This document shows positions 2,507 through 59,811 of a stretch of 60,756 nucleotides of DNA, in pieces; within the stretch, counting starts at the first letter, position 1; each line of letters begins with the position of its first letter. The stretch is taken from NCBI GenBank assembly GCA_021776565.1, contig JAJFFQ010000044.1:1-60756 (forward strand). Direction: 5' to 3'. The notes under the pieces are model-generated. The model did not search any database, was not told the origin of the DNA, and saw only the letters and a list, made by a program, of their open reading frames with translations. This stretch comes from Robiginitomaculum sp. GTDB taxonomy: Bacteria; Pseudomonadota; Alphaproteobacteria; Caulobacterales; Maricaulaceae. The position numbers and the translations under genes were made by a program.

Positions 2507-2603
2507 TAAAACTCCATCGTGTTTCATCAGGACAAGCCTAAAGCACATTTTTTGCAAATGGAATTATTTTGACCCAGAAAAAACGACCAAAGAGACATAA
2601 GCT

Positions 2604-6076: not shown

Positions 6077-6087
6077 GGATCAGGAAT

Positions 6088-8103: not shown

Positions 8104-8114
8104 CATATCATTGC

Positions 8115-10604: not shown

Positions 10605-10628
10605 AAGCACATCATAACCAGAACAGGT

Positions 10629-11687
10629 TTATTGAGAGTTAGCCGGACTAATATGCCGCAAAGCAATACCCGTCTCGGTTTCTACCGCCGATAGCGACAA
10701 TAGAGTCGTTAAATCCCGCACGGCCCTGTCCAGGTCTGTAATTTGTAATATTCCAGAAAACCGTAAATCTGCCAAATCAACATCTGCCATATAGACTGGA
10801 TTGGTAAAATAGCGATTTAACTCCGCAATAACATCTGTCAGGTCGTCGTTTTCAAAAATGAGAAACCCCTGTTGCCAAGCGGTAACTTTCGTCGTGTCAA
10901 ACGGCTGTACAGTTATTACTGTATCGGCTTGATGTACCGCTTGCTGGCCTTCAACGAGGCGTATTTTTGATGTTGAGGAGGGCAGAGTATTATTTTCAAG
11001 GGGCAGAGAATCTACTTCGACAATACCCTCCGTCACAGAAACCCGCGTACGCCCAATATCCATACGGACATCAAAGCGCGTGCCAATATCTGTCACCCTG
11101 AGGGTATTGGCCGCTACCACAAATGAACGTTCATTCTCATGCTGGACAGTAAAAGAAGCCTCGCCCTTTTGAAGGTCAATCAGGCGGGTCGTTTTATCCA
11201 TGCGAACAGCAATGGATGTGCCGGTGTTCAGCATAACTGTGCTGCCATCGGCCAATATTATGGTGCGCTGTTCGCCAATATCCGTGGCATAAAATGTTTC
11301 ACTTGTAACGTCATTTTGGCCAATAAAAACAGGCGCCATCAAAATCAATAACGTGGCAGCAATCGCAGCACCAAAACTGCCACCAAAAGCCCATGGTTTG
11401 GCACTAACGGCTTTGCGTAGCTGGTGCAAAGGAAAAGCAATGACATTGCTGGCAAGTTCTGGTGTATCAGCATGGTCACGCACAATCACTTCAGACAAAC
11501 TACCCACGTCATCCCATGCCAGTGCAATTATGTCATAGGCCTCATTATGGGCTGGGTCAGCTTCCAGCCATTGCGTAAACGTCGTCCAGTCATCGCCGGA
11601 TGCTGATCCACCATGCAGGCGCACGTGCCATTCCAGGGCATCTGCATTGACCTTTTCAGCACGATTAGTATTTGGCTCTTTACCCAT
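10629..11687 (-). CDS. FecR-family anti-sigma factor / signal transducer
   Basis: The 352-residue inner-membrane regulator starts with a cytoplasmic DUF4880-type domain (about 15-60, containing WTTFTQWLEADPAHNEAYD). A single membrane span follows (about 100-122, AAIAATLLILMAPVFI). The periplasmic FecR domain contains DIGEQRTIILADGSTVMLN and DIGTRFDVR, and a C-terminal region resembling an STN-like fold carries RYFTNPVYMADVDL. It should hold the ECF sigma factor encoded upstream until the receptor reports ligand binding. It lies between the sigma gene (94 bases upstream) and the receptor gene (24 bases downstream). Confidence 0.92.
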   Translation of the reverse strand: MGKEPNTNRAEKVNADALEWHVRLHGGSASGDDWTTFTQWLEADPAHNEAYDIIALAWDDVGSLSEVIVRDHADTPELASNVIAFPLHQLRKAVSAKPWAFGGSFGAAIAATLLILMAPVFIGQNDVTSETFYATDIGEQRTIILADGSTVMLNTGTSIAVRMDKTTRLIDLQKGEASFTVQHENERSFVVAANTLRVTDIGTRFDVRMDIGRTRVSVTEGIVEVDSLPLENNTLPSSTSKIRLVEGQQAVHQADTVITVQPFDTTKVTAWQQGFLIFENDDLTDVIAELNRYFTNPVYMADVDLADLRFSGILQITDLDRAVRDLTTLLSLSAVETETGIALRHISPANSQ

Positions 11688-11781
11688 TAACTTTTTATTC
11701 CTTCACTGGATTGACGCCACCAACGACACAAACCCTCCAGTGCATATCTGAATTTTATTCCCACAAACTGTAAAAAAAATA

Positions 11782-12306
11782 TCATGGATCGGCATCTCTT
11801 AAAATTTGCGTTAGCTCACGCATGGCGCGGATGATGTGCTTTTCCACGGTGCTGACAGAAATTCCCAACTCTGCGGCAACCTGTTTATGTGACAAGCCTT
11901 GCATACGGTGTAGTTCAAATGCTTTGCGCGCTTTGGGTGGCAATCTATCAATGGCAGCACGAACCTTGGCGATACGTTCGCCGCGCAAAAGCCGGGTTTC
12001 ACCATCTTCTTCACTAGAAGTGGCAAAACCCCCAATTTTTTCTGTGCTTTCATCAGTCCACTTTTCATCTCGAAGAACGCGGCGTTTACGTTGACGAATA
12101 TTATCAAGCGCCAAGCGCCCGGCCATGGTGAAAAGATAACTGACTGGATTATCAAGCGTTTCGCTTATTTTGGTCTTGCTAACCTTGACCCACAATTCCT
12201 GCACCAGATCCTCGGCCAAGGCCTCATCGCGCACACGTGCAGCGAGAAACCGGCATAAGTTCGCTCGTTGCTCCATATATGTGGTCTGTAGGTCTTCATT
12301 CGACAT
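11782..12306 (-). CDS. ECF sigma factor (FecI-like)
   Basis: The 174-residue sigma-70 family protein has region 2 (RANLCRFLAARV, AEDLVQELWVKV and SYLFTMAGRLALDNIRQ), a charged linker, and region 4 with a helix-turn-helix (HKQVAAELGISVSTVEKHI). The start at 12306 (MSNEDLQTTY) gives the normal family length; the upstream in-frame ATG codons add a tail unlike the family. It directs transcription of the FecR and receptor genes downstream and possibly of the divergent repeat-protein gene. The 264 bases to that gene are the likely promoter region; I did not find a convincing -35/-10 pair. Confidence 0.92.
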   Translation of the reverse strand: MSNEDLQTTYMEQRANLCRFLAARVRDEALAEDLVQELWVKVSKTKISETLDNPVSYLFTMAGRLALDNIRQRKRRVLRDEKWTDESTEKIGGFATSSEEDGETRLLRGERIAKVRAAIDRLPPKARKAFELHRMQGLSHKQVAAELGISVSTVEKHIIRAMRELTQILRDADP

Positions 12307-12570
12307 AGCATTGAATATGGGCAAAAAAGAGAAGGTAGCAATGGAGAGATGCGTAACAATTACATTTGTCTGCATTACCACCACCCATGCCTGTTTTCAC
12401 AGCCTGAACCCTAGATTTTATCACGCTTTTAAGAAGGGTTTTATTCAAACCTCCCCTTGCGCATTACGTTTGTTGTATTTTTTTCCCATCAAACTGGAGG
12501 TTCCGGCCTGACGGCGACGTCTATGAACTGAACGGCTTGTTGCCGGTACTGTAAATCAATGGAGATAATA

Positions 12571-46105: not shown

Positions 46106-46361
46106 GGGTCAGGCCTCGTCAATGTAGGTCTTGTATTGAATACTATGGTTCCTCCCCGTCCCCAGGGTTTTGGCCACAGCCGTGCGTACCCCTTGCTTTA
46201 GTGTGCAAAAATGCCGCATATTACATTGGGTTACACTGGACGGGGCAAATAACACATGAACTGGTGCATATTTCTGTCCATTTGTGCTAAACGCCCGTCG
46301 GCGTTTCGCTTCTGGCAAGCGAATGTCATTATTGTATAAATATCAAAGGCATGATGCTGTC
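45843..46361. other. Intergenic stretch between the XRE regulator and acyl-ligase genes
   Basis: It holds the inverted-repeat element, the dispersed word AGGGTCAGGCCTCGT at 46105-46119, and then about 240 bases with no supported gene. The 61-codon open frame at 45875-46060 lies inside the element, has skewed Arg-rich composition and no family resemblance, so I do not call it. Confidence 0.65.
46105..46119. repeat. Copy of dispersed word AGGGTCAGGCCTCGT
   Basis: Identical over 15 bases to 24373-24387; the third copy is on the opposite strand at 128-141. It directly abuts the right end of the inverted-repeat element. Confidence 0.6.
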
Positions 46362-48122
46362 ATGAATGATCTTCAACCGACACCGACGAAAAGTGGGATT
46401 CCGCGCAGATTTGCAAATTTTGATTTGCTGACAGATGCGCTGGATTATGCCGCAAAGGGTCAGGCCGGGCTTAATTTTTACACGGCCCGCAACGGGCTTG
46501 AAGACGTGCTATCCTACGCGCAATTGCGCACACGCGCCCTTGATGCTGCCCGGCGTATGTTGGCCGCCGGTCTGACCTCGGGGGATCGGGTGGCCATTAT
46601 CGCCGAAACGGATGCAGAATTTGTTGTAACATTTTTTGGTTGTGAATATGCCGGCTTGATCCCCGCACCCTTGCCCCTTCCCGTCGCCTTTGGCGGTAAG
46701 GAAGGATACATCGCACATTTAAAGCGGATCATGCAGGTGTGTGGCGCCAGTGCCGTGTTTAGCCCGGCATCTTTGGTTGAGTGGATCAAAGATGCAGCAC
46801 AAACCCTGGATTTGGTTTATGCTGGCTCTCTTGCCGAACTTCAACCAGCAAAAAAACCGGATACACCCCTGCCCCGCGCCAAACCGCAAGACATGAGTTA
46901 TTTACAGTTTTCTTCGGGGACTACACGCTTTCCTCTGGGTGTTGAAATTACGCATGAAGCATTTATGGCTAACGCTCAGGCGATATGCCGTGACGGCTTA
47001 CAATTGCGTGAAGATGACCGGGCGTGTTCCTGGTTGCCGTTTTACCATGATATGGGTCTGGTGGGATTTTTGCTAGCTCCAATAGCCGCCCAGCTTACTG
47101 TTGACCTATTACCAACCCGGGACTTTGCCAGACGTTCTTTGGGCTGGTTGAAAATGATTTCAGATAACCGGGCCACGCTCGCCTATAGCCCTTCCTTTGG
47201 CTATGAGCTTTGCGCCCGTCGTGCCCGCACGGCCAAACTCGACCATCTTGACCTTTCTTGCTGGCGTGCTGCCGGTATTGGTGGCGATATGATCCGCCTT
47301 CCTGTGCTGGATCGCTTTACCGAATGTTTTGCCAAAGTAGGGTTCAAGGGTAGTGCTTTTGTTGCCAGTTACGGTATGGCCGAAGCAACGCTGGCGATCA
47401 GTTTTGCGCCGCATGGTCAGGGTCTTGTCTACGATACGCTGGATTTAAACGCCCTTGACCGGGATAGTCTTGCGATGCCGACAAAACCGGGTAGTGGCGT
47501 GCCACAACGCGCATTTGCCCTGTGTGGTGCCGCGCTTCCTGGCCACAAGATAGAAGTACGCAATGCAAAAGGAACGGCTCTGGGTGAGGGCGAAGTAGGA
47601 CGTATTTTTGTCACTGGCCCCAGCCTGATGAAAGAATACTACGGTAATGCAGGAGAAACAGCCTGTGTTTTGACCCCCGATGGCTGGCTTGATACAGGTG
47701 ATCTTGGTTATTTTCGCAATGGCCAGATCGTCATAACTGGTCGGGTCAAGGATTTGATCCTGGTCAATGGGCGTAATGTCTGGCCACAGGATCTTGAGTG
47801 GGCTGCTGAAAATGGCAATGACGTTTTACGTGCCGGTGATGTGGCGGCTTTTTCTATAGACGATGGTGAGGGTGAGCAGGTGATCTTGCTGGTTCAAACC
47901 CGCATTTCTGACCCAGAACGACGCAGCTCTTTATTGAGCGGTATCGAGGGTCTGGTCAGTTCTGAATATGGCCTTTTGGCCAAGGTGGTCAGTGTGCCAC
48001 CCCATAGCCTACCACAAACCTCCTCTGGCAAACTGAGCCGGATCAAGGCGCGGAAAATGTATCTGGAGGGGGCTTTTGAACGTGCGCGTAAATCCAGTCC
48101 TCATGCTGCGGGTACCGCGTGA
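46362..48122 (+). CDS. aasR: Fatty acyl-AMP ligase / acyl-ACP synthetase of the sphingolipid locus
   Basis: The product has 586 residues from the ATG at 46362; ATG codons upstream (46284, 46323) are possible but lack family similarity. Motifs: LQFSSGTTRFPLGVEITHEA (P-loop), LPFYHDMGLVG, YGMAEATLAISF, WLDTGDLGYF and GRVKDLILVNGRNVWPQDLE. This is the fatty acyl-AMP ligase branch, which loads acyl chains on carrier proteins. In Caulobacter the homologous gene beside spt is needed for ceramide synthesis and is proposed to charge the dedicated ACP. The next gene starts inside its stop (GTGA). Confidence 0.85.
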   Translation: MNDLQPTPTKSGIPRRFANFDLLTDALDYAAKGQAGLNFYTARNGLEDVLSYAQLRTRALDAARRMLAAGLTSGDRVAIIAETDAEFVVTFFGCEYAGLIPAPLPLPVAFGGKEGYIAHLKRIMQVCGASAVFSPASLVEWIKDAAQTLDLVYAGSLAELQPAKKPDTPLPRAKPQDMSYLQFSSGTTRFPLGVEITHEAFMANAQAICRDGLQLREDDRACSWLPFYHDMGLVGFLLAPIAAQLTVDLLPTRDFARRSLGWLKMISDNRATLAYSPSFGYELCARRARTAKLDHLDLSCWRAAGIGGDMIRLPVLDRFTECFAKVGFKGSAFVASYGMAEATLAISFAPHGQGLVYDTLDLNALDRDSLAMPTKPGSGVPQRAFALCGAALPGHKIEVRNAKGTALGEGEVGRIFVTGPSLMKEYYGNAGETACVLTPDGWLDTGDLGYFRNGQIVITGRVKDLILVNGRNVWPQDLEWAAENGNDVLRAGDVAAFSIDDGEGEQVILLVQTRISDPERRSSLLSGIEGLVSSEYGLLAKVVSVPPHSLPQTSSGKLSRIKARKMYLEGAFERARKSSPHAAGTA

Positions 48123-49069
48123 TTTCAAGCCCTGAGCGTCCTCTTGTTGCGCTTACCGGTGCCACCGGGTTTTTAGGCCGTTATCTTGTTCAGGCCTTGT
48201 CTGCAAAAAACTATCGTCTGCGGGCACTGGTTCGATCACTGCCTGTGCATGAGCAGTTGGCAGCACACAAATTAGAGTTGATTGCGGGCGATTTGGGCGA
48301 TCAGGCCGCCCTTGAGCGCCTGACCAGGGGTGCAGATACAATTATACATTTGGCGGGAGCCATAAAGGGAAATGATGAGGCATTGATGCGGATCAATGGC
48401 GAAGGCACTAGCCGCCTCGCCGCCGCCTGGCAAAATAATGCCCAGAACGCCCGGTTGATTTGTGTATCTTCTTTTACTGCAAGAGAGCCGCAACTATCCG
48501 CCTATGGAGCCAGCAAGCATTTCGCCGAAAATGCTATGCTGGCTCTGAATGGCAATTGGCTCATAGTTCGCCCGCCAGCGGTTTATGGCCCCTGGGATCG
48601 GGAAACCCTGAGCATTTTCAAGGCGTCCCGTTGGCCCTTGCATCCCATGCTGAACGGTGAAAATGCCCGCCTTAGCCTCATCCATGTGCGTGATGCAGCC
48701 GATGCGCTGTGCGCGCTGGGCCAGGCAGGGCCAAAGCAGCAAATTGTTGAGCTTTCTGATGCAGCACCAGCGGGATATAACTGGCCTGAAATCGTCATGG
48801 CGGCGTGTCGGGCCGCATCCAGCACGCCTCGGCCAGTTCGCCTTCCCCCGGCTCTGGTCAGGCTGGCAGCCACACTTAATGGCAGATTTGCCCGGATGCG
48901 GGGCAAGGTCAGTATTTTCGATGAGGGAAAGGCCCGCGAAATCCTGCACCCGGACTGGACAGCGCAGTTGCAACATCGCGTGCCGGCTGAGGTTTGGGGG
49001 CCAAAAATAACGCTTGGCAAAGGCTTTGCAGAAACCGCATCATGGTATCAAAAAGCGGGCTGGCTATAG
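48119..49069 (+). CDS. cerR: NAD(P)-dependent epimerase-like reductase, ceramide pathway (CerR-like)
   Basis: The 316-residue extended SDR has the nucleotide motif LTGATGFLGRYLVQAL (about 13-28), the catalytic motif YGASKHFAEN (YxxxK) and IHVRDAADALCAL. The start is GTG, overlapping the ligase stop by 4 bases. In Caulobacter the locus SDR CerR reduces the 3-keto group after N-acylation (oxidised ceramide to ceramide). The neighbours here (acyl ligase, ceramide synthase, spt) support the same role. It converges on the ceramide synthase gene with a 6-base overlap. Confidence 0.83.
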   Translation: MISSPERPLVALTGATGFLGRYLVQALSAKNYRLRALVRSLPVHEQLAAHKLELIAGDLGDQAALERLTRGADTIIHLAGAIKGNDEALMRINGEGTSRLAAAWQNNAQNARLICVSSFTAREPQLSAYGASKHFAENAMLALNGNWLIVRPPAVYGPWDRETLSIFKASRWPLHPMLNGENARLSLIHVRDAADALCALGQAGPKQQIVELSDAAPAGYNWPEIVMAACRAASSTPRPVRLPPALVRLAATLNGRFARMRGKVSIFDEGKAREILHPDWTAQLQHRVPAEVWGPKITLGKGFAETASWYQKAGWL

Positions 49070-50209
49070 CGGTTTTTCGTAAACCCGGTAGGTTTTGTAG
49101 GCTTCGCCGCCAAGGGTTTCAATCATCCGGCGAACCGGGGCATTGCCTTCCAGTATCCAGGACATTTCCACCCGTTTAATCGGAGAGTTAAACAAATCCG
49201 ATTCAACCGCATATATCAGCCGAAAAGGTAATATTTGCCCCAACAGACCTTCACTGAATTTTTCCCGAACCCCCATTAGCAACACTCGCGCCGTTGCCGG
49301 ACGGATAACTTTCAGACGCCATAAAAGCTTAAGCCAACCAAACGGCACCAGGCGACCGTTCAAACCATCAATGGCCCCATTTATATCAGGTAGGCAGACA
49401 ATGAAGGCCGCTGGCTCACCGTCAATATCAGCAAACCAGGCCAGTTCCTTGCGAATCAACGGGCGCAATTCCTTGGCCATATGCGCGGCTTCCTTTTCCG
49501 TCATCGGGACAAACCCCCAATTGGTGTGCCAGGCCTCGTTAAAAATGCTGACGATAGTTTTGATTTCCCGGTCATAGTGTTTCATGTCGAACATGCGCAT
49601 ACTCACATGACCACTGCGCCGCTCAGCCATTCGTCGCCATTTTTCAGGGAACAGAAAATCAGTGCCACGAATATAGGCGATGAGATCCTTGGCCTTGGCA
49701 AACCCTGCCGCCTCGATATGCCCGCCCATATAGGCCGGATCATGGGACATGAGCATCATCGGTGGCGTATCAAATCCATCAACCAGAAGGCCGACTTCCT
49801 GATTGATGGAAAGGTTAAACGGCCCTTGAATGGTATCCATACCCCGGTCACGAAGCCAGGCTGAGGCCGTTGCCAGCAATGCCTCCGTAACAGACGGATC
49901 ATCAATGGCGACAATCATGCCAAAATGGCCGGTTTTGTTGTTATTGGCTTTCAGGGCCAGTTGATCGACCTGGGCGCTTATGCGTCCAACTGCCTTATCG
50001 TTTTTTCGGGCTATCCAGTATTGCGCCTCTGCATGTTCAAAATAGGGACTTTGTCCAGGATCAAGAATACCCAGACGTTCAATCTCCAAAGGCGATATCC
50101 AGTTTGGATCATCACCGTAAAGTATGGTGGACAGACGAATAAACTCCCTCAATCCCGCCTTGCCCTTTACGGGTTCAATACAAATATCCCCGGCCACATT
50201 AATTCTCAA
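49064..50209 (-). CDS. bcerS: GNAT-fold bacterial ceramide synthase (bCerS-like)
   Basis: The 381-residue protein is of the type often mislabelled 'dATP pyrophosphohydrolase'. It has a GNAT-like acyltransferase fold: AQYWIARKNDKAVGRISAQV, GFVPMTEKEAAHMAKELRPL, ELAWFADIDGEPAAFIVCLP and a C-terminal MSWILEGNAPVRRMIETLG. The Caulobacter homologue N-acylates 3-ketosphinganine and is unrelated to eukaryotic ceramide synthases. The likely start is TTG at 50209, overlapping the lptG stop; a GTG at 50197 is the alternative. Coupling to lptG/lptF is notable. Confidence 0.83.
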   Translation of the reverse strand: MRINVAGDICIEPVKGKAGLREFIRLSTILYGDDPNWISPLEIERLGILDPGQSPYFEHAEAQYWIARKNDKAVGRISAQVDQLALKANNNKTGHFGMIVAIDDPSVTEALLATASAWLRDRGMDTIQGPFNLSINQEVGLLVDGFDTPPMMLMSHDPAYMGGHIEAAGFAKAKDLIAYIRGTDFLFPEKWRRMAERRSGHVSMRMFDMKHYDREIKTIVSIFNEAWHTNWGFVPMTEKEAAHMAKELRPLIRKELAWFADIDGEPAAFIVCLPDINGAIDGLNGRLVPFGWLKLLWRLKVIRPATARVLLMGVREKFSEGLLGQILPFRLIYAVESDLFNSPIKRVEMSWILEGNAPVRRMIETLGGEAYKTYRVYEKPL

Positions 50210-51287
50210 GCCTCAGAAGAAACCAGCTGCCACCAGCGGCAAACAGAATAGCCGTTGACCAGGCGGCGGCAAACATGGGGATAATATGGGCCTGACCAAG
50301 AGAAAGCAAAATGCCGTCTGCAAGTAAAAAACTGAACCCGGCAATGATAGCAAAGCCCAGATTGCGTGATGTGGTTCCTGCACGACGTTGACCGGCGGCC
50401 ACCGGCGCTGCCAGCAACAGCATGATGAGCGGTGAAAACAGTGTCAGGTATGCCTTTTGCAATTGCAGTTGATAATAATCACCCGAACGCGATCCGGCGG
50501 CATTGCCCTTGATAACCTTGCGTGAACCTGAGGTGGAAATGCTAACCTCTGGATTGGCCAGCTCTAAAATTGTGGACGGGCTAAGGGCCGTGTGCCAGGT
50601 CATGGCCGACATGGAGAACGTGCTAGATCCGCCATCGTCAGAGCCAATAAATCGATCCACGCTGTTGAGTATCCAGGCACCATTGCCTTGCCATTGTGCA
50701 TCATTGGCCTGAATGCGTTCCGAGATTTGCTGATCGCGATTCAGTGAATAAATGGTGACGCCTTCAAGGTTTCGCCCGCCATTGGTGTGGGATTTAATGC
50801 GGATCACGCTATAGGTTGTGCGCGCCCAAACCTCATCACCTGGCTCGGTGTTTGCGGCTGATCGGGTTGCCGCATCCGGGTCGGTTCGCTCCCACCATGA
50901 TACAAAAACCTTGTCAGCACGGGGCACGATCTGATCCGAGAGGAAAAAATAGGCAATGCCGATAAAAAGTGTTAGCGGAACCAGCATGAAAACCGCGCGA
51001 TAGGGCGTTTGGCCAGAGCCGCGCAGGGCAATCATCTCGCTATTTTGTGCCAGTGAAAAGAACGTTAGTGCTGCGCCCAGCAAAGTAGAAATCGGCACCA
51101 GACCTTGCATGGTCACAGGCATACGCAAGGCAATATATTTCAAAAAACCGAAAAAGCCTTCACCGCGCTCGATAATATCAGTTGAGGCACCCAACAGGTC
51201 TATGAGCTGCATCAAGGCTGTAAAGGATAGTAACACCCAGAACATTTTGATTGCCATTTGACGTGAAAGATAACGGGAAAGAATCAT
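50199..51287 (-). CDS. lptG: LptG-family permease (YjgP/YjgQ)
   Basis: The 362-residue inner-membrane protein has the YjgQ layout: N-terminal spans (about 10-125, beginning ILSRYLSRQMAIKMFWVLLS), a periplasmic beta-jellyroll domain (about 130-270, with VIRIKSHTNGGRNLEGVTIY) and three C-terminal spans (LTLFSPLIMLLLAAPVAAG, NLGFAIIAGFSFLLADGILL, IIPMFAAAWSTAILFAAGG). With LptF and LptB2 it would extract lipid from the inner membrane. Its start overlaps the lptF stop by 4 bases. It is followed by ceramide synthase, not lptD, so the cargo may be sphingolipid instead of LPS (inference). Confidence 0.88.
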   Translation of the reverse strand: MILSRYLSRQMAIKMFWVLLSFTALMQLIDLLGASTDIIERGEGFFGFLKYIALRMPVTMQGLVPISTLLGAALTFFSLAQNSEMIALRGSGQTPYRAVFMLVPLTLFIGIAYFFLSDQIVPRADKVFVSWWERTDPDAATRSAANTEPGDEVWARTTYSVIRIKSHTNGGRNLEGVTIYSLNRDQQISERIQANDAQWQGNGAWILNSVDRFIGSDDGGSSTFSMSAMTWHTALSPSTILELANPEVSISTSGSRKVIKGNAAGSRSGDYYQLQLQKAYLTLFSPLIMLLLAAPVAAGQRRAGTTSRNLGFAIIAGFSFLLADGILLSLGQAHIIPMFAAAWSTAILFAAGGSWFLLRLEN

Positions 51288-52525
51288 GAGTTTTGCGCCT
51301 GACTGGATGGGCGAAACCGTTCTGGCAGAAGTCGCTTGATCCGCCGCGCAACAAAGTCAACCAGTTTGAAAATATGACGCAACGGCATGCCTTGCCCCTG
51401 GCCTTTTGTGACAAAAAACAACCAGGCACAGAAAACCCCAAAGCCAGCCCCAAGTCCCCAAATGGCTGGCCCGGGATTGATGATCTGCAAATCACCAAAC
51501 CCCTCCAGTAATTGTATGGACTGGTGATAGGCAATAATAATGACCCCGGTCAGGGCTATGCTTTCCCATCGCGGCGTGCGTTTTGCCGATAACCCCATTG
51601 GCACAGCCAGAAGGGGAAGAAAAATCAGGGACAGGCCACGCACCAGACGCGCATGAAATTCGGATAACAAACGGGCGCGCCGTTCATCCGGCCCAGGCAT
51701 TGCCGCTTCATCCCATAATTCATTTAAGGTCATTTCACGTTCGCTGAGACCTCTGGGGCGAAAAATCGGCGCGTTGGCAGAATACTCACGACTGATGTCC
51801 AGTGAGCCAAAATCCAGCGCCGTTGTATCGCCGTCCTCATTGGTTGGCATGGTGGTACCATCATTAAGGCCAAGAACCAGCCTACCAGCGTCCTTGTGGG
51901 CGACCAATTCGCCAGTTTTGGCGGTTATCGCTGTTTCCACAGTACCCTGGCCGCTTTCATCGGCGGTAATTTGAAACACAAACACACTGGTTAACTTACG
52001 CCCTTCCGGGCCAACCTCCAGCGCACTAAGGCGCAGGCCATTGCCCGTGTCTATGAATGTGCCTGGAATGATCTGGGCATCCCATGGGGAGTTGATAAGC
52101 GCATGTTTGATCGCGCTAAAAGCGTAGCGGCTATAGGGCTGAATATAACCAAACAGGGCTACACTAATCAGCGCCAATGCCATTCCGACAACAATAAAAG
52201 GCACGGCAATGCGTTGTATAGAAAGGCCGCTGCCTTCCAGGGCATCCATCTCGTTTTCTTCGCACATCCGCAAAATGACCGACAACATGGAAAAACAAAA
52301 GGCCGCCGGTAATGCCAGTCCCAGATAGTGCGGCACCAGATTGGCCGCCATGGCAAAGACCATTCCGGCCCCGCCGCCGCGTTCAGCCAACAGCTCAAAC
52401 AAACGCACAATGCGCTCCAGTAACAGGGCCGTCATAACAACGGCCATCGACACCATTAACGGCTTGAACAAAAGGCGCAGCATATAAAAATCAACCATAA
52501 GCACGCGGATCTGGCGGGGTTTCAT
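51284..52525 (-). CDS. lptF: LptF-family permease (YjgP/YjgQ)
   Basis: The product has 413 residues from the ATG at 52525, which has AGGA 5-6 bases upstream; a GTG at 52567 is an alternative. It has N-terminal spans (MLRLLFKPLMVSMAVVMTAL; MVFAMAANLVPHYLGLALP), the conserved coupling-helix segment EENEMDALEGSGLSIQRI, a periplasmic jellyroll (about 150-300) and C-terminal spans (LSLIFLPLLAVPMGLS, WGLGAGFGVFCAWLFFV). It is the partner of LptG encoded directly downstream. No LptB, LptC, LptA or LptD gene is in the window, so an ATPase must come from elsewhere. Confidence 0.88.
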   Translation of the reverse strand: MKPRQIRVLMVDFYMLRLLFKPLMVSMAVVMTALLLERIVRLFELLAERGGGAGMVFAMAANLVPHYLGLALPAAFCFSMLSVILRMCEENEMDALEGSGLSIQRIAVPFIVVGMALALISVALFGYIQPYSRYAFSAIKHALINSPWDAQIIPGTFIDTGNGLRLSALEVGPEGRKLTSVFVFQITADESGQGTVETAITAKTGELVAHKDAGRLVLGLNDGTTMPTNEDGDTTALDFGSLDISREYSANAPIFRPRGLSEREMTLNELWDEAAMPGPDERRARLLSEFHARLVRGLSLIFLPLLAVPMGLSAKRTPRWESIALTGVIIIAYHQSIQLLEGFGDLQIINPGPAIWGLGAGFGVFCAWLFFVTKGQGQGMPLRHIFKLVDFVARRIKRLLPERFRPSSQAQNS

Positions 52526-52666
52526 TGCTGTCCTGCGGGCAGAAATAAGATCAGATGGACTAGTCACAAATACGGCTCTGTATAATGGCAGGAGGGGGAG
52601 GTTTTAGTAAAATAAACACGTTTACACATTAGAAAAATTTACCCTGTTTGGCAAGGTTTGCTGACC

Positions 52667-53578
52667 TCACGCACTGTTCAAGATAACTTGTGCGGCCAGT
52701 GTTGTGGGCAAATTTCTACCGGCATAACGGTGAACATTGAGTGAAATTTTCCAAACCCCCTGCACGCGCTGCACCTCATATTCATGCCAGCAACTGACCG
52801 GATAATGTTTGCCCGCACGCACAGAAAGAGAGGCAACGCCCATTACCGGAACCGGGCCATCCGGCCCGGACAATGTATGCATGCTGGAGCAATGGGTGTG
52901 GCCGTGCAAGATCAGTTCAGCGCCGGTTTTTGCAATGATTTGAGCGAAAGTTTCAATATCTTCAAGTCCGCCGCGTGGTTTTTGTGGGCCTGCTGGTGGA
53001 TGATGCAAGGCGATAATTCTGCACAGGTTTTCCCGCCTGGCTTTACTTAAAACTTCTCGTAAATGATCGCGTTGGGTCTCACCCAGCCGCCCGCTGCACC
53101 AGCCTGCAGGGGTTTCTATGGCTGTTGAAAGGCCAATAAAAATAATATCATTTTTACGTTTTGTGAAAGGAAAAGTACGGGCATTTTGTTGCCCATCCCC
53201 GCGCATATAGGGCGCAAGTTGCAAAAGCCCGTCCCGGGCACCGCCCTCATCCAGAAGTAAATCATGATTACCAGGAATTGCCGTGACATCTATCGGCGTT
53301 CCCAGGCTTTGCAGCCAGCCTGCGGCACGATCATATTCGCCGGGGAGGGAAAGATTGGTCAGATCACCGGTGACAAGGATATGCGCAGGCGCACGGGCCA
53401 GTAAATCCTTGACCATGTGATCGGTAACTGTCTTGTGGTGAATGTTGCGACGGTTACCAAACCATGAGAGAGCCGAAAAAAATCTCTTGTTGAGAAATGC
53501 ACCCGGGCGCGAACAATCGCCAATGAAAGTTGGCAAGTGAATGTCAGAGACATGAGCAAAGCGAAATGATTGTGACAT
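52667..53578 (-). CDS. Calcineurin-like metallophosphoesterase
   Basis: The 303-residue protein has all five metallophosphoesterase motifs: HVSDIHLP (9-16), VTGDLTNLS, PGNHDLL, ALHHPPAG and ILHGHTHCSS. It is cytoplasmic by appearance, with no signal peptide. Relatives include cAMP/UDP-diacylglucosamine-type phosphodiesterases. It lies between lptF and the ceramide kinase gene, divergent from the latter, so a phosphorylated sphingolipid or head-group precursor is a possible substrate (inference); a general phosphodiesterase cannot be excluded. Confidence 0.87.
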   Translation of the reverse strand: MSQSFRFAHVSDIHLPTFIGDCSRPGAFLNKRFFSALSWFGNRRNIHHKTVTDHMVKDLLARAPAHILVTGDLTNLSLPGEYDRAAGWLQSLGTPIDVTAIPGNHDLLLDEGGARDGLLQLAPYMRGDGQQNARTFPFTKRKNDIIFIGLSTAIETPAGWCSGRLGETQRDHLREVLSKARRENLCRIIALHHPPAGPQKPRGGLEDIETFAQIIAKTGAELILHGHTHCSSMHTLSGPDGPVPVMGVASLSVRAGKHYPVSCWHEYEVQRVQGVWKISLNVHRYAGRNLPTTLAAQVILNSA

Positions 53579-53665: not shown

Positions 53666-54646
53666 GTGAATCCGAACCTGTCATCACCACTTGCCCGCAT
53701 TGGCGTTGTGCAAAACCCGTTCAGCACATTGAATCGCAAGCGTTACGGCGTTCAACATGCCGCGAAAAGCGATCAGGGCATTTATGTGGAACAGGCAGAG
53801 AAAACCAGTGATATTGGCCGGATACTACAACAGTTTCACGATTTGAAGGTCAACATAATCGTTATCGATGGCGGCGATGGCACAGTGCGTGAAGTGCTTA
53901 GTCAATGCCCGAACGTGTTTGGCAGCACCATGCCGTTATTTTGCATCTTGCCATCTGGAAAGACCAATGTATGCGCCCATGACACGGGTACAGCCAGATA
54001 CAAACGCGATGCGTTCAACCGCCTTCTGGCATTGCGCAAAACGGGCATTGGGCAGGAGCATTTACGCCGCCGTTTTGTGCTCAGGGTAGAATGGGAAGAT
54101 GATTTTCACCCGCCGGTTCATGGCATGCTCATCGGGTTTGGCGGATTTCGCGAGGCCACAAATCTGGCGCAAAGCCACGTTCATTCCAAAGGTTTGAACC
54201 ATAATGCTGCTGTGGCAATGACCATTGTCAGCTTCTTCTATAATGCTATTTTCGGGCGCGATGACCAGGGTCTACGTGCCGGGGAAAACATGAGCATTGG
54301 TTTTGATGGCAAAAGAGAAATAAACCACCCGCGCTTTGGTGCCATACTCACGACACTACAATCCTTCCTGATCGGCGTGTGGCCGTTTTGGGGCGATGCC
54401 TCGCGCGCGATCACATGGCTGGATGTTGATGCCCCGCCGCCGCGTCTTTTGGCTGCTGCCCTGGCTGTATTTAGAAAACGCCCCAAACCATGGATGGAAG
54501 CGGCAGGTTACCGAAGTGGTAGCGCCAACAATCTGCTCATAAAGACACACAAGCCGTTTATTATAGATGGTGAAACGTTTGAACCTGGCCCTGGCGGACG
54601 ACTGCGAATCACAAGCGATTTACAAGTTGATTTTATTGCACCATGA
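53666..54646 (+). CDS. cpgB: Diacylglycerol/ceramide kinase-family protein (CpgB-like)
   Basis: The 326-residue protein begins with a DAGK catalytic domain: VVQNPFSTLN (14-23), the nucleotide motif IDGGDGTVRE (67-76) and LPSGKTN (95-101), followed by the C-terminal beta domain. The start is GTG at 53666. The family phosphorylates lipid hydroxyls; in Caulobacter the sphingolipid-locus member CpgB is a ceramide kinase that begins ceramide phosphoglycerate synthesis. Position between ceramide genes supports that activity. The next gene overlaps its stop (ATGA). Confidence 0.82.
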   Translation: MNPNLSSPLARIGVVQNPFSTLNRKRYGVQHAAKSDQGIYVEQAEKTSDIGRILQQFHDLKVNIIVIDGGDGTVREVLSQCPNVFGSTMPLFCILPSGKTNVCAHDTGTARYKRDAFNRLLALRKTGIGQEHLRRRFVLRVEWEDDFHPPVHGMLIGFGGFREATNLAQSHVHSKGLNHNAAVAMTIVSFFYNAIFGRDDQGLRAGENMSIGFDGKREINHPRFGAILTTLQSFLIGVWPFWGDASRAITWLDVDAPPPRLLAAALAVFRKRPKPWMEAAGYRSGSANNLLIKTHKPFIIDGETFEPGPGGRLRITSDLQVDFIAP

Positions 54647-55596
54647 GCAATACACAGGATGCTTTAGATCAATTTATCAATGTCGAACTTGGCCAGCCGG
54701 TTATGGCCGAGGCCAAGTTTCTGGCAAAACAAATTGCAGAGGAAATGGGCGAGCACGCTCTTGCAGTATTGTTTTATGGTTCATGCCTGCGCACTGGCGA
54801 CGGTGCGGGGCTTATGGATTTCTACGTCCTGACCGACGGAGCCGAGGGCTATGGTTCGGGGGCCGTTTCGCGCTTCGCCCACACACTGGTGCCGCCCCTT
54901 GTGCGTTATGCCAAAAATGAATTTGACGGCAAGCCGATCCATGCCAAAGTCGCCGTCATCACTCTTGAGCGTTTTGCGGAACTGGCACAGCACAAGGCAT
55001 TTGATATTTCTATCTGGGCACGGTTTGCCCAGCCCACCGCCCTTGTATTTGCTCGCGATAAGACTGTGCAGGCCAGGGTACATAACGCCATTCGCAAGGC
55101 CATTATAACGGGGATAAACTGGGCCGTTTACTTTGGCCCTGATGAAGGGACGGCAGGAGCGTTCTGGTGTGCGCTTTTTCGCGCAACTTATGCGGCTGAA
55201 TTGCGTATAGAAAACCAAAGTCGGGCAGATCAAATCATCGCCCTTGCGCCGCAACGTTATGATGAGTTGTTTTTGCCCGCCTTGGCGGCGGCGGGGTATT
55301 CACCAAAGTCTACCGGACAAAATACGTTTCGCCTGTCCGATAGAAACAAGCGCCGCCTGGCCTTGAAACTAAAATGGTTAGGCTGTCAAATCACCAGCAA
55401 AACAGTTAATTTGCTCCGTATATTCAAGGGAGCCGTGACGTTTGAAGGGCGGGCAGATTATGTGGCGTGGAAGCTGGAACGACAAACCGGCGTGACGCTT
55501 GAGCTTACACCCTGGCAGCGGGATCATCCGTTGTTGGCGTCACCGCAGATTCTGTTTCAGATGTGGCGCAAGGGCGCGTTTGCAAATCGCCATTAA
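54643..55596 (+). CDS. Nucleotidyltransferase-like protein coupled to ceramide kinase
   Basis: The 317-residue protein is soluble-looking and of no family I can name with certainty. The N-terminal part has VLFYGSCLRTGDGAGLMDFY (43-61), resembling the GS-x(n)-D core of the nucleotidyltransferase fold. The second acidic residue of the usual DxD is Tyr61, so the active site is incomplete or arranged differently. The remainder is helical with conserved-looking GAFWCALFRATYAAELR. It is translationally coupled to the ceramide kinase gene, which suggests a step in ceramide head-group assembly. Whether it equals CpgA or CpgC of Caulobacter I cannot say. Its last 92 bases overlap the spt gene tail to tail. 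Confidence 0.75.
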   Translation: MSNTQDALDQFINVELGQPVMAEAKFLAKQIAEEMGEHALAVLFYGSCLRTGDGAGLMDFYVLTDGAEGYGSGAVSRFAHTLVPPLVRYAKNEFDGKPIHAKVAVITLERFAELAQHKAFDISIWARFAQPTALVFARDKTVQARVHNAIRKAIITGINWAVYFGPDEGTAGAFWCALFRATYAAELRIENQSRADQIIALAPQRYDELFLPALAAAGYSPKSTGQNTFRLSDRNKRRLALKLKWLGCQITSKTVNLLRIFKGAVTFEGRADYVAWKLERQTGVTLELTPWQRDHPLLASPQILFQMWRKGAFANRH

Positions 55597-56848
55597 GCTG
55601 CGCCGCACCATTGCCTTGCTGCGCAGTCTTATCGGCCCTTTTGCTATTGGAGAGGGTGATTAACCCCAATTCCCGGCCAATTCTGGTGCAAACCTCGATC
55701 GCCAGGGCAATCTGCTCGGTCGTGTGGGCTGCACTAATGGACGAGCGTAGCAAATACCAGCCAAAAGGTGTCGCTGGCGGCAGCGCAAGATTGGTATAGA
55801 CACCGGCATCAAGAAGTCCGTTCCATAACCCAATGGCCTTTTCCGGGTCAGACAAGCGAATGGCGACAATCGGGCTTATGGTTGGCCCAAGTTCAAACCC
55901 GGCCTGTTGCAGGCCAGTGTAAAGCTGCGTGGCATTATCCCATAATTTTTTGCGCAAATCTGTGGCACCGGCAATTTTAGCCAGTGTCTTGCGAGCCGAG
56001 GCAACAACAGATGGCGGCGGACTGGCAGTAAACATATAAGGGCGGCTGACAAAACGAACAATACCCAGCCCTGGCAGATTGGAAACCAGAAACCCGCCAA
56101 CGGTGCCTATGCTTTTTGAAAATGTACCGGTGATGAAATCAATATCGCCTTCAACGCCTTCGCGTTCACACAGACCCCGGCCCTTTTGGCCAAGAACGCC
56201 AAGGGAATGGGCTTCATCGATCAACAAATACGCGCCATATTTTTTCTTGATTTCAACAAATTCCTTGAGCGGAACCATGTCGCCAAGCATGGAATATATG
56301 CTTTCAACAACGATCAACTTACTGCCCGACGTGCCTTCAAGACGTTTTAGCTTGCGTTCCAGATTGACCGGGTCGTTATGTCGAAAACGGATAACCTGGG
56401 CATCACTAAGACGGCAGGCGTCATAAATACTGGCATGGCTATCGGCATCAATAAGAAGATAATCATCGCGCCCGGCAAGGGCGGCAATGGCACCAAGGTT
56501 TGCCTGATAACCGGTTGAAAAAAGAATCGCAGAGCGCATGCCGTAAAAGACCGCAAGTTCCTCTTCCAGGGCTTTGTGACCATTATAACTGCCATTGGCA
56601 ATGCGAGAGCCGGTGGTACCGGTACCTTGCGTCTTTAACGCCTCAATGGCGGCATTAACAGCGCCTTCATCAAAAGTCATGCCCAGATAATTATTGGTTC
56701 CCATCAAAATGGTGCGTTTGCCATTCAGCATGGCTTCTGTAGGCGAGATAATATCTTCAAACTGCAATTGATCGGGGCTTCTGCCCAGGGCTGTCAGGGC
56801 GGTATGCTGTTCCTGCAAGGGTGCAAATTTATCGAAAATACTACTCAT
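55505..56848 (-). CDS. spt: Serine palmitoyltransferase
   Basis: The 447-residue PLP enzyme is of the alpha-oxoamine synthase family and condenses serine with an acyl thioester to 3-ketosphinganine. Key sites are His138 (ADSHAS, stacks on PLP), Asp211 in DEAHSLGVLG and Lys245 in TGTFSKSIG (Schiff base). The start at 56848 follows the acpR stop by one base. A low-complexity tail of about 45 residues after residue 400 (rich in Thr, Ala, Asp and Gln) exceeds the usual family end and lies in the overlap with the convergent gene. Pairing with an acyl carrier protein gene separates it from KBL (glycine acetyltransferase) and BioF. Confidence 0.9.
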   Translation of the reverse strand: MSSIFDKFAPLQEQHTALTALGRSPDQLQFEDIISPTEAMLNGKRTILMGTNNYLGMTFDEGAVNAAIEALKTQGTGTTGSRIANGSYNGHKALEEELAVFYGMRSAILFSTGYQANLGAIAALAGRDDYLLIDADSHASIYDACRLSDAQVIRFRHNDPVNLERKLKRLEGTSGSKLIVVESIYSMLGDMVPLKEFVEIKKKYGAYLLIDEAHSLGVLGQKGRGLCEREGVEGDIDFITGTFSKSIGTVGGFLVSNLPGLGIVRFVSRPYMFTASPPPSVVASARKTLAKIAGATDLRKKLWDNATQLYTGLQQAGFELGPTISPIVAIRLSDPEKAIGLWNGLLDAGVYTNLALPPATPFGWYLLRSSISAAHTTEQIALAIEVCTRIGRELGLITLSNSKRADKTAQQGNGAAQLNGDLQTRPCATSETESAVTPTTDDPAARV

Positions 56849-56849
56849 G

Positions 56850-57125
56850 TCAGGCAGCTTCCTTTTGAAGAACGGCAATGGTTTTTGTCAGATCAGACAG
56901 GGTTTGAACTTCGGCAATGCGCTCCATCGGGATTGAAATATCAAAACTGTCTTCCAGGTCGAAGATGAAATCCATGATCGCCAGTGAGTCCAATCCCAAA
57001 TCGCGGGTGATGTTTGTATCTGGCCCGATTATAGCATTGTCTCCCGCCCGTTCACGCAAATGGGTTTTGATTTCCAGCATAATGGTTTCAGGGTCGGTTT
57101 TCACGGGTGTATTTGATGATGCCAT
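56850..57125 (-). CDS. acpR: Acyl carrier protein dedicated to sphingolipid synthesis
   Basis: The 91-residue ACP has the phosphopantetheine site DLGLDSLAIMDFIFDLED with Ser47. It is acidic and helical, and its stop lies one base before the spt start. In Caulobacter the spt-linked carrier protein is needed for ceramide synthesis and is charged by the locus acyl ligase. The ligase gene at 46362 is the probable partner. Confidence 0.9.
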   Translation of the reverse strand: MASSNTPVKTDPETIMLEIKTHLRERAGDNAIIGPDTNITRDLGLDSLAIMDFIFDLEDSFDISIPMERIAEVQTLSDLTKTIAVLQKEAA

Positions 57126-57514: not shown

Positions 57515-59713
57515 CTAAAATGTGCGGCCAAATTTGAAGAAAAACTGCGTTGTGCTGCCACTGCCATATGCACCACCAAGGAACAAAGGCCCGAGCGGCG
57601 TGTCAGCGCCCACATAGAGTGAGCCTGAATAGACATTGGCCTGCTCATTCACATCAAAAAAGCTAAGAGGCAGCCGACTGTATTCACCAATGACCCCGAT
57701 ATAAATCGGAATATCAATCAGCTTGCCAGTCTGGGTCAGTCTGCGAAAAACCTCTATGGAGCCATAGGTAAATGAACTGGCAGGCAGTGAGTTGTTGGAA
57801 AATGACCCAAGTTGGCGAAATCCGCCCAGTGAGAAAATCTCCAACGAACTGTTTACCTGATTTTTTTTCGATGTTTCGCCATAACGACCATTAAGCAAGA
57901 CCCCAAAGTTTGAGACATCGAACGCCGCCAAAAGGGATGCGTCTAGCGTATCAACAGAAGCGATAGGGCGACCACCCATATCATAAGTGCGCTTGGCCCG
58001 TATGCGTACCCGTTGCCCTGAGGTGGGCCAGTCATTGCGATCAAGCGTATCGGCAGCAAAATATACCCCCAGATTTGCGCGATCAGCACCACTGGTTTTG
58101 AAGTCATCAAAAATGCTGACGATTTCAGACAGGCGCGTGGTGTCGATACCGCCTTCAAGGGCGACAACACCCCATGCGCCAATCTCCCGCCCGGTGCGAC
58201 CCCGCAGCCCGATTTTTCTGGCGCGAAAATCGCCGACCCTGATGCTCAAAACGTCAATTTTGCGCTGTTCCCAGCGCACAAAAACCTCAGGCTGTATAAA
58301 AAACCGCCCGGCCCGGCCCAAGGGCTGATACAGCTCGGCACTAAGGCCAATATCTGTACCAAATTCACCAGACAGGCTAAAATCCCCTCCATAAGCACTC
58401 AAGGGCTTGTGGGTTAATCTGGCCAAAACAGCATAGCTCGAGCTGCCCTCGAAATCATTGGTGGCATTTAGCCCGATTTGCACGAGATTTCGCCCCAGGC
58501 TGTTTTCATTAACGGTTAAAACAGTGGCCCCGTTTGAATGACCCAGATCAACCTCTCCAAAACCGCCAAAAGACGTCAGATTGCGCAAGCGACGGTTTTG
58601 TTTTTTCGGGTTTTCGTCATCCTTTTGACCTTGTAAAAAGCGGTTCTGGATCAGGCTGTCTTTCACCCTGGTATGGTTTACAATTTTAAGATCAGACGAA
58701 ATAACGGGTGATTGAACCGCCATCATCCGCCTTCGCGCCGGGGCCGCCCTGGCCTTGATTGCCAACAGGGCATCTTTTAGGCCAAGCCCAACCTCTCGCC
58801 CGGCTTTTATGCCCTCAGCCGCCCGTTCATAGGCCGCTGTGCCGATATTGATGGTGTTGGGGCGAATGAGAATATCACCCTCGCCCATAAGGGCTAATTC
58901 ACGCTCTACGCCTCTCCACACAACAATGGTGGTGATTTGCAAGGTGGTGCCAGCAACGGAAATATCTGATTGCGGTGCGTCTGGCGGATTAGAAACATCA
59001 ACGGCGATGATAATATCAGCGCCCATTTTCTTGGCCGCTTCAATAGGTAAATTCGATGCAATGCCGCCATCCACATAAAGCCGACCATCAATGTTTCTGG
59101 GGGCAAAGGCCGCCGGAACCGCCATGCTGGCCAGTATGCTTTCAACCAAATCGCCGCGATCAAAGGCTTTTGCTTCACCGGTATGTAAATCTGTGGCAAT
59201 GGCACGAAACGGAATTTCAAGATGATCGAAATTGGCGTCTGTCGGCACGTTGGAGAGAATTTCGCGATAAAACTGCTTTAGCCCCCGCATGGACGACAAC
59301 CCACCCGGAAGTTTCACCCCGTCTTTGCCAATGCCGGCAACATTGCCGGAAAAATAGGATTCTTCGCGTTCTTTTTCTACAAATGACTTATCGCGCCGTG
59401 GGGTTCCGCCTCTGAAAATTGTGCCCCAGTCATTAGAATTAAGAATGTCTCCGATCTCGTCCGCCGAATATCCTGTGGCATAAAACGAGCCAACCACAGA
59501 CCCCATGCTGGTTCCGGTTATACAATGAACAGGTATTTCCAGTTCATCCAGTATTTGCATCACGCCAACCTGGGTGCTGGCCTTGGCCCCTCCCCCGCTT
59601 AGCACCAAACCCACATCCAGCCCGTCTTTATCATCAAAATCACAGGCACTGGCGGCATGAGTAAACAAGAGCAAGATAAACCAAACCACACCTGTTGGTA
59701 AAAACCGCTTCAT
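57515..59713 (-). CDS. Patatin-like phospholipase fused to outer-membrane barrel (PlpD-like)
   Basis: The 732-residue protein has a signal peptide (1-23, GVVWFILLLFTHAASA). The patatin domain (about 32-320) shows GGGAKA oxyanion loop (40-45), GTSMG with nucleophile Ser69, and VDGGIASNLP with the dyad Asp. A POTRA-like segment follows and then a BamA/TpsB-type barrel ending FFFKFGRTF. The ATG at 59713 begins the signal peptide and has GGGGG about 7 bases upstream; earlier in-frame starts would bury it. Such type Vd proteins display or release a phospholipase A at the surface. It lies next to the sphingolipid genes; a functional link is unproven. Confidence 0.9.
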   Translation of the reverse strand: MKRFLPTGVVWFILLLFTHAASACDFDDKDGLDVGLVLSGGGAKASTQVGVMQILDELEIPVHCITGTSMGSVVGSFYATGYSADEIGDILNSNDWGTIFRGGTPRRDKSFVEKEREESYFSGNVAGIGKDGVKLPGGLSSMRGLKQFYREILSNVPTDANFDHLEIPFRAIATDLHTGEAKAFDRGDLVESILASMAVPAAFAPRNIDGRLYVDGGIASNLPIEAAKKMGADIIIAVDVSNPPDAPQSDISVAGTTLQITTIVVWRGVERELALMGEGDILIRPNTINIGTAAYERAAEGIKAGREVGLGLKDALLAIKARAAPARRRMMAVQSPVISSDLKIVNHTRVKDSLIQNRFLQGQKDDENPKKQNRRLRNLTSFGGFGEVDLGHSNGATVLTVNENSLGRNLVQIGLNATNDFEGSSSYAVLARLTHKPLSAYGGDFSLSGEFGTDIGLSAELYQPLGRAGRFFIQPEVFVRWEQRKIDVLSIRVGDFRARKIGLRGRTGREIGAWGVVALEGGIDTTRLSEIVSIFDDFKTSGADRANLGVYFAADTLDRNDWPTSGQRVRIRAKRTYDMGGRPIASVDTLDASLLAAFDVSNFGVLLNGRYGETSKKNQVNSSLEIFSLGGFRQLGSFSNNSLPASSFTYGSIEVFRRLTQTGKLIDIPIYIGVIGEYSRLPLSFFDVNEQANVYSGSLYVGADTPLGPLFLGGAYGSGSTTQFFFKFGRTF

Positions 59714-59811
59714 TTTATTCCCCCACATTTTTGCTTCACCTGTTCGGCAAAGTACCTCATACCATATCAATCCTTTTAATAAATGTATGATCTAAAGCAT
59801 TGAGGGAAGCC

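Follow-up and report, generated by a model that had tools for sequence, protein, structure and literature searches.

A second LptF-LptG pair lies inside a ceramide locus

The stretch of DNA analysed here (the window: 60,756 nucleotides of contig JAJFFQ010000044.1, assembly GCA_021776565.1, from a Robiginitomaculum species) contains a ceramide locus with two genes of the lipopolysaccharide (LPS) transport family, lptF2 and lptG2, embedded in it. Both products align to essentially the whole of the PF03739 permease model, at 187.7 bits for LptF2 and 210.8 bits for LptG2 (cut-off 27.9). LptF2 is closer to the LptF model than to the LptG model (TIGR04407, 173 bits), and LptG2 scores highest as LptG (TIGR04408, 229 bits), with solved LptG chains aligning to its residues 3-359 (best E 6e-19). 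These family matches, the alignment to solved chains and synteny across loci rule out a chance open reading frame.

The gene order is lptF2-lptG2-cerS. The two permease genes share four bases (ATGA), and lptG2 abuts the TTG/GTG start of cerS, the putative ceramide synthase gene, or overlaps it by up to 11 bases. An initial annotation of the window had placed an LptF/LptG pair within the sphingolipid locus, overlapping or abutting ceramide synthase, and the family matches and gene positions agree with it. Of the span that it gave, 50199-52525, the start holds and the end falls short, as the longest open frame of lptF2 reaches a GTG at 52567, 42 bases further.

Ceramide genes lie close by: spt, the acyl-AMP ligase, the reductase of the short-chain dehydrogenase/reductase (SDR) type, a frame the size of an acyl carrier protein (ACP) and the lipid kinase are each no more than 6 kb from lptF2G2 (Table 1). 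We took the names aasR, cerR, cerS and acpR by position from the Caulobacter cluster described in PMC11324152.

Table 1. Genes of the ceramide locus in the window
Gene or product	Position	Strand	Assignment
aasR	46284-48122	+	fatty acyl-AMP ligase; NF006624, 831 bits; named by synteny
cerR	48119-49069	+	SDR/epimerase family, candidate ceramide reductase; PF01370, 85 bits; named by synteny
cerS	49064-50209	-	putative bacterial ceramide synthase; named by position in the Caulobacter cluster
lptG2	50199-51287	-	LptG-type permease, 362 aa
lptF2	51284-52567	-	permease of LptF type for an ABC exporter; 427 aa, counted from the first GTG
metallophosphoesterase	52667-53578	-	directly upstream of lptF2; PF00149, 56 bits
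lipid kinase, diacylglycerol kinase (DAGK) type	53666-54646	+	candidate ceramide kinase; PF00781, 40 bits
conserved sphingolipid-locus protein	54643-55596	+	no Pfam or NCBIfam match
spt	55505-56878	-	serine palmitoyltransferase; NF047599, 633 bits (cut-off 500)
acpR	56850-57125	-	candidate acyl carrier protein, 91 aa frame beside spt; named by synteny

The cerS product had no Pfam or NCBIfam match in library scans. Frames resembling it (45-85% identity) occur in 15 other loci, with spt visible in 13 of these within the stretch fetched, and frames similar to acpR likewise stand beside spt in relatives. Robiginitomaculum metagenome-assembled genomes are the closest named relatives. In all nine named Robiginitomaculum loci the order is acp-spt / 54643-55596 gene-lipid kinase / phosphoesterase-lptF2-lptG2-cerS / cerR-aasR, and cerS lies 0-45 bp from lptG2 in every one, so the linkage of lptG2 to cerS is not due to chance. 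Across 28 mapped sphingolipid loci, a counterpart of the 54643-55596 protein was found in 22, the lipid kinase in 21 and the metallophosphoesterase in 15. PMC11324152 calls CC_1157, the positional counterpart of the metallophosphoesterase, probably unrelated. Adjoining the acp gene in the window is a 751-residue patatin-type phospholipase (57515-59770) with some 500 residues past its patatin domain.

The window's genome also carries a canonical pair

LptFG matches number four in the genome from which the window comes (2.9 Mb, 96% complete). Two are the window genes; the other two form a pair on contig C50 that adjoins the sole LptD match of the genome, with pepA / lptF-lptG-lptD-surA-pdxA-ksgA as the gene order there. 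The possibility that the window pair is the genome's only LptFG is thereby ruled out. The initial annotation had reported the locus to be without lptD and had proposed a search for a second lptF-lptG next to lptD; both the absence from the locus and the existence of such a pair are borne out by contig C50.

The NCBIfam LptF and LptG cut-offs do not tell the two types apart. The window pair and the canonical pair of the same genome (LptF 199, LptG 220 bits) all fall below the NCBIfam cut-offs (230 for TIGR04407 and 240 for TIGR04408), and the pair of an LPS-less genome, G037, exceeds both at 243 and 254 bits. We therefore rejected these equivalog cut-offs as a diagnostic. Since the G037 pair passes cut-offs labelled for LPS export, pairs of this kind may carry an LPS-exporter annotation even where the genome has no LPS.

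Second pairs mostly accompany Spt with LpxC, and sphingolipid-linked pairs persist where LpxC and LpxK are absent

We scanned 190 genomes of the class, evenly drawn, for LptFG, Spt, LpxC and LptD, calling Spt at E <= 1e-120. Spt was present in 25. Ten of these have LpxC and 15 lack it, and LpxK is missing from exactly the same 15. Among the ten with both Spt and LpxC, nine have at least four LptFG matches, that is, two pairs (G027 has five matches, its canonical LptG lying in two parts on separate contigs), versus one of the 147 genomes with LpxC and no Spt (Fisher p 8e-13, a rough guide only, as kinship is ignored). Only one of all 165 Spt-negative genomes, G022, has four matches; G025, G064, G087 and G182 have three. 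Named genomes bearing cerS behave alike: of those behind the 15 cerS loci, eight were searched and all eight, two of them Enterobacterales, have at least four matches.

The 15 Spt-positive genomes without LpxC and LpxK, which we refer to as LPS-less, present a different picture: exactly one LptFG pair in 13, and none in G066 and G071 (the latter 82% complete). Each of the 13 single pairs lies 0-5.05 kb from a gene of the sphingolipid locus and on the sphingolipid side of both gene trees described below. A pair of the LptF2G2 type, the sole pair in these 13 genomes, is thus not tied to lipid A biosynthesis. LptD is kept in 14 of the 15. In nine of these 14 (G012, G037, G039, G058, G071, G093, G131, G145 and G167) pepA directly abuts lptD, so that canonical lptF-lptG is missing from the very spot that it normally occupies; for the remaining five, the stretch fetched showed no pepA beside lptD.

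Gene trees separate the two kinds of pair

Maximum-likelihood trees were built from 59 LptG and 62 LptF rows, drawn from the 23 Spt-positive genomes having LptFG, nine Spt-negative genomes (G001, G033, G041, G057, G060, G063, G183, G189 and, with its canonical pair only, G022), E. coli and named relatives. Near-identical rows were removed, and L076 and L092 contribute LptF rows only. G182 and seven of the 15 cerS loci (L009-L013, L015 and L017) are in neither tree; the pair of another cerS locus, L008, entered via L079. A partial LptG of G027 (L106) was kept out of the LptG tree and in the residue alignment used below, which hence has 25 canonical LptG rows.

In the LptF tree, 31 rows (29 sphingolipid-linked and two unlinked) fall on one side with support of 100/99, and 26 rows (25 linked to pepA, lptD or surA and one unlinked) form the canonical side with 100/96. 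The LptG tree splits 28 sphingolipid-linked rows and one unlinked row from all others (100/97). The window pair lies opposite the pepA/lptD-linked copies in both (100/97 for LptG, 100/99 for LptF), together with the Caulobacteraceae pairs L016, L018 and L019, and the alphaproteobacterial sphingolipid side of either tree is without any pepA-, lptD- or surA-linked row. The trees also place a copy on which BLAST is ambiguous: LptG of G167, which scores 103 bits against E. coli LptG and 101 bits against that of the window, goes to the sphingolipid side. The initial annotation had asked whether spt-linked copies form a clade of their own; among alphaproteobacteria they do have their own side in both trees.

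E. coli groups with the canonical and the sphingolipid-linked pairs of two Enterobacterales, apart from both alphaproteobacterial sides. A single origin of all sphingolipid-linked pairs, Enterobacterales included, is disfavoured by the approximately unbiased (AU) test (p 0.0115 for LptG, 0.0095 and 0.0089 for LptF), a result that attraction may affect, the Enterobacterales rows being on long branches.

LptB-coupling residues are conserved and a basic site reported to contact lipid A is mostly lost

Coupling-helix glutamates of LptFG engage LptB (PMC5082905). The window pair keeps both, E84 in LptF and E88 in LptG, as do 29/29 LptF and 26/28 LptG copies of the sphingolipid-linked alphaproteobacterial class. 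In the LPS-bound LptB2FG described in PMC6744409, from which we took the contact residues, LptG 40 and 41 are reported as contacts for the 4'-phosphate of lipid A and the inner core. A basic residue stands at position 40 in 22 of the 25 canonical copies versus one of the 28 sphingolipid-linked ones, and at position 41 in 18 of 25 versus three of 28, with Asp or Glu in 17 of the latter 28. The two sphingolipid-linked copies from Enterobacterales have Asp at both positions, where the canonical copies of those genomes have Lys/Arg. LptF R33, a 1-phosphate contact, is found in 26/29 sphingolipid-linked and 12/25 canonical copies. The loss of the basic LptG 40/41 site fits a smaller head group on the predicted substrate.

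The rest of the export machinery appears to be shared

Spt-positive genomes mostly have one set of the remaining components. LptB has one match in 23 of the 25, two in G145 and none in G066 (with scoring limited to 70 candidates in the largest genomes); LptC (PF06835) has a single match in 22 and two in no genome; and an LptA-type match stands beside an LptC or LptB match in 24. The 15 LPS-less genomes retain LptB in 14, LptA in 14 and a detectable LptC in 12. In the window's genome lptC-lptA-lptB stand together on contig C6, followed by an apparent rpoN, and the one PF06835 match of the genome is within this cluster. No second LptC was found by PF06835 in the 26 genomes searched, a model that a diverged LptC2 could escape, and no LptC-like frame was recognised by eye upstream of aasR in one Phenylobacterium locus; what stands there is a Polysacc_synt-type flippase and a ligase-like frame 24% identical to aasR.

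Nearly every Spt-positive genome has LptB, LptA and LptD at a single locus each, and a second LptC was not detected; the other components therefore appear to be shared with LPS. The simplest reading would be that a single LptB and a single bridge serve both FG pairs. The initial annotation's idea of a dedicated exporter thus suits the permease pair, which looks dedicated, and does not extend to LptB, LptA, LptD and probably LptC, which look shared.

A model for sphingolipid export through LptF2G2

Spt and ceramide synthase are described as cytoplasmic and the reductase as periplasmic (PMC11087976), and the lipid must therefore be flipped. In our model, LptF2G2 would take the anionic sphingolipid from the periplasmic leaflet of the inner membrane, powered by the same LptB ATPase that serves LPS, and the lipid would be handed through LptC and LptA to LptD along the bridge used by LPS. 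Genomes with both lipids would have two FG pairs feeding the one bridge. In lineages without lipid A, the canonical FG would have been lost and the whole machine would serve sphingolipids.

We put the probability of this model, sphingolipid extraction by LptF2G2 with delivery to a shared LptB-C-A-D machinery, at about 0.72, with substrate, sharing and direction all predicted from sequence and gene content. That a paralogous LptFG pair is a candidate sphingolipid exporter had been suggested by the initial annotation, and the second pair, the tree split and the 13 LPS-less Spt-positive genomes support it.

Several observations weigh against this model. G066, a single-contig genome at 100% completeness, has a ceramide locus in the order aasR-cerR-acp-spt-phosphoesterase-cerS (G066:C1:1500000-1519500) and no match for LptFG, LptD, LptC, LptA, LptB, LpxC or LpxK (70 of 166 LptB candidates scored); ceramide making therefore does not always need Lpt. 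G079, with Spt and LpxC, has a ceramide locus and only the canonical pair, beside lptD. Neither genome has the lipid kinase or a gene of the 54643-55596 type in the 19.5 kb around spt, and their product may be plain ceramide, for which an exporter of this sort would not be required. Against that explanation, G012 and G145 have the pair, yet neither of the two genes in the stretches fetched.

A control group is the second point. Among the 18 genomes lacking both LpxC and Spt, nine keep LptD, and the same nine have at least two LptFG matches (G019, G023, G059, G062, G087, G127, G134, G151 and G166). Retention is lower than in the LPS-less Spt-positive genomes (9/18 versus 14/15, Fisher p 0.009, kinship ignored), and for six of the nine, completeness is 71-91% and the lack of LpxC may be an assembly gap; at 95-100%, G059, G062 and G134 are harder to explain away. 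Some of the nine may be incomplete, and others may have an additional lipid to export. By itself, keeping LptD in the absence of LpxC is hence no proof of sphingolipid export, and the control slightly lowered our estimate, from 0.74 to 0.72.

The remaining points concern kinship, residues and stray copies. The census pattern is confounded by kinship: for the sphingolipid-linked alphaproteobacterial rows, the gene trees call for only about four changes of LPS state as a minimum. Most residue differences between the classes trace to one split among alphaproteobacteria, and LptG 34, which makes a charged contact in LptG of the E. coli type, had to be rejected as a diagnostic, being mostly Asp in both classes. 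Finally, G191, a Robiginitomaculum-like genome, has a third pair of the sphingolipid type (C4:46585; positions 8571-10855 of G191:C4:38000-57000), and neither that pair nor an LptF of G194, which also falls on the sphingolipid side, has a reference sphingolipid gene in the 18-19 kb fetched around it.

Alternative explanations

The alternative that survives best, though we consider it unlikely, is that the pair exports sphingolipids by a route of its own, with its own LptC2, bridge or outer-membrane exit in place of LptC-A-D. PMC11324152 proposes CC_1168 as an LptC2, G066 has a ceramide locus with no match to an Lpt bridge, and the control genomes indicate that LptD retention has other possible reasons. 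Against a separate route, PF06835, a model that may miss a diverged LptC2, gave at most one match per genome across the 26 searched, and LptD, LptA and LptB are each kept in 14 of the 15 LPS-less Spt-positive genomes.

Less plausible still is that LptF2G2 moves another lipid made only alongside sphingolipids, or serves membrane maintenance and not export. The extra copies in G191 and G194 would suit such a role, as would the pair in an inositol-type operon described below, which indicates that pairs may serve other lipids; the measured sphingolipid-linked loci, in which a gene of the locus such as cerS, spt or the lipid kinase is 0-5.05 kb away, argue against it. Equally improbable is a redundant or specialised LPS exporter, for instance for a modified LPS produced at the same time as sphingolipids, placed in the sphingolipid locus by chance: the pair is full-length, of the same family and retains its LptB coupling residues, and the G037 scores mean that names cannot separate the types, but 13 genomes without LpxC and LpxK have this type of pair only and the basic LptG 40/41 site is mostly lost.

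Permease pairs in other lipid loci

Two Enterobacterales, Rahnella woolbedingensis (L020) and Pseudocitrobacter vendiensis (L021), have a second LptFG pair inside a sphingolipid locus. Both loci also hold a Polysacc_synt-type flippase, and both genomes keep the canonical pair.

G022, the Spt-negative genome with four LptFG matches, carries a very divergent pair (82 and 76 bits) in an apparent operon (L063, positions 1997-12369 of G022:C2:493000-509000). The operon includes an alpha-oxoamine synthase with 31% identity to the window's Spt, inositol-1-phosphate synthase, an SDR, a CTP-transferase, a GT4 glycosyltransferase, an FGGY-type kinase and a CDP-alcohol phosphotransferase. Our Spt threshold excludes this oxoamine-synthase-family enzyme, which scores under the cut-off of both bioF (325 bits) and NF047599 (265 bits). 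The operon appears to be a locus for an inositol-type lipid, equipped with a permease pair of its own. It resembles the window in having a second LptFG beside an alpha-oxoamine-synthase gene and lipid head-group genes; it differs in its very divergent permeases, in its inositol-1-phosphate synthase and CDP-alcohol phosphotransferase, and in having no cerS match.

A broader proposal, to which we give even odds, is that Lpt is a general lipid-export bridge and not a machine for LPS as such: one LptB-C-A-D set would be served by exchangeable LptFG pairs, each recruited to the biosynthetic locus of its lipid. Such recruitment would have taken place independently in the sphingolipid clade of alphaproteobacteria, in those Enterobacterales that have the sphingolipid locus and in the inositol-type lipid operon, and in LPS-less sphingomonad-like lineages the bridge and LptD would deliver sphingolipids alone.

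Comparison with known systems

The route by which bacterial sphingolipids reach the outer membrane was stated in 2024 to be unknown (PMC11324152; PMC11087976, section 7). PMC11324152 designated Caulobacter CC_1168, CC_1156 and CC_1155 as LptC2, LptF2 and LptG2, probably acting in phosphosphingolipid transport in a manner analogous to LPS; that paper did not itself study transport. The initial annotation had named no established dedicated extraction complex. Its reading of the pair as a candidate exporter stands, and the idea itself was already in this earlier proposal. Judged by title and opening of the abstract among the matches listed, from sources leaving bioRxiv and most subscription journals outside, no other paper proposes or tests LptF2G2 export or presents an LPS-less census. 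The window pair thus adds one more case to a kind already proposed, and the additions made here are the loss pattern and the probable sharing of the bridge.

The census sharpens a named candidate into a testable model in which LptF2G2 is dedicated and LptB, LptA, LptD and probably LptC are shared. The model offers a reason for LptD retention in LPS-less alphaproteobacterial sphingolipid producers, and suggests that Lpt-directed compounds could act on LPS-free bacteria.

Relative to Caulobacter crescentus, the window is alike in having lptF2, lptG2 and cerS within a ceramide/phosphosphingolipid locus, with the same proposed role. Orthology to CC_1156 and CC_1155 rests on synteny and on Phenylobacterium/Caulobacteraceae proxies. 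No counterpart of Caulobacter LptC2 was detected with PF06835, which could miss a diverged one, in the window's genome, where that model has a single match. Relative to canonical LptB2FG(C), LptF2G2 is alike in its full-length family match, its LptB-coupling glutamates and its F-G order. It differs in its side of the trees, in being without pepA, lptD or surA linkage, in the replacement of most basic residues at LptG 40/41 (by T, D, G, S or E), and in that pairs of its type are kept where LpxC and LpxK are absent.

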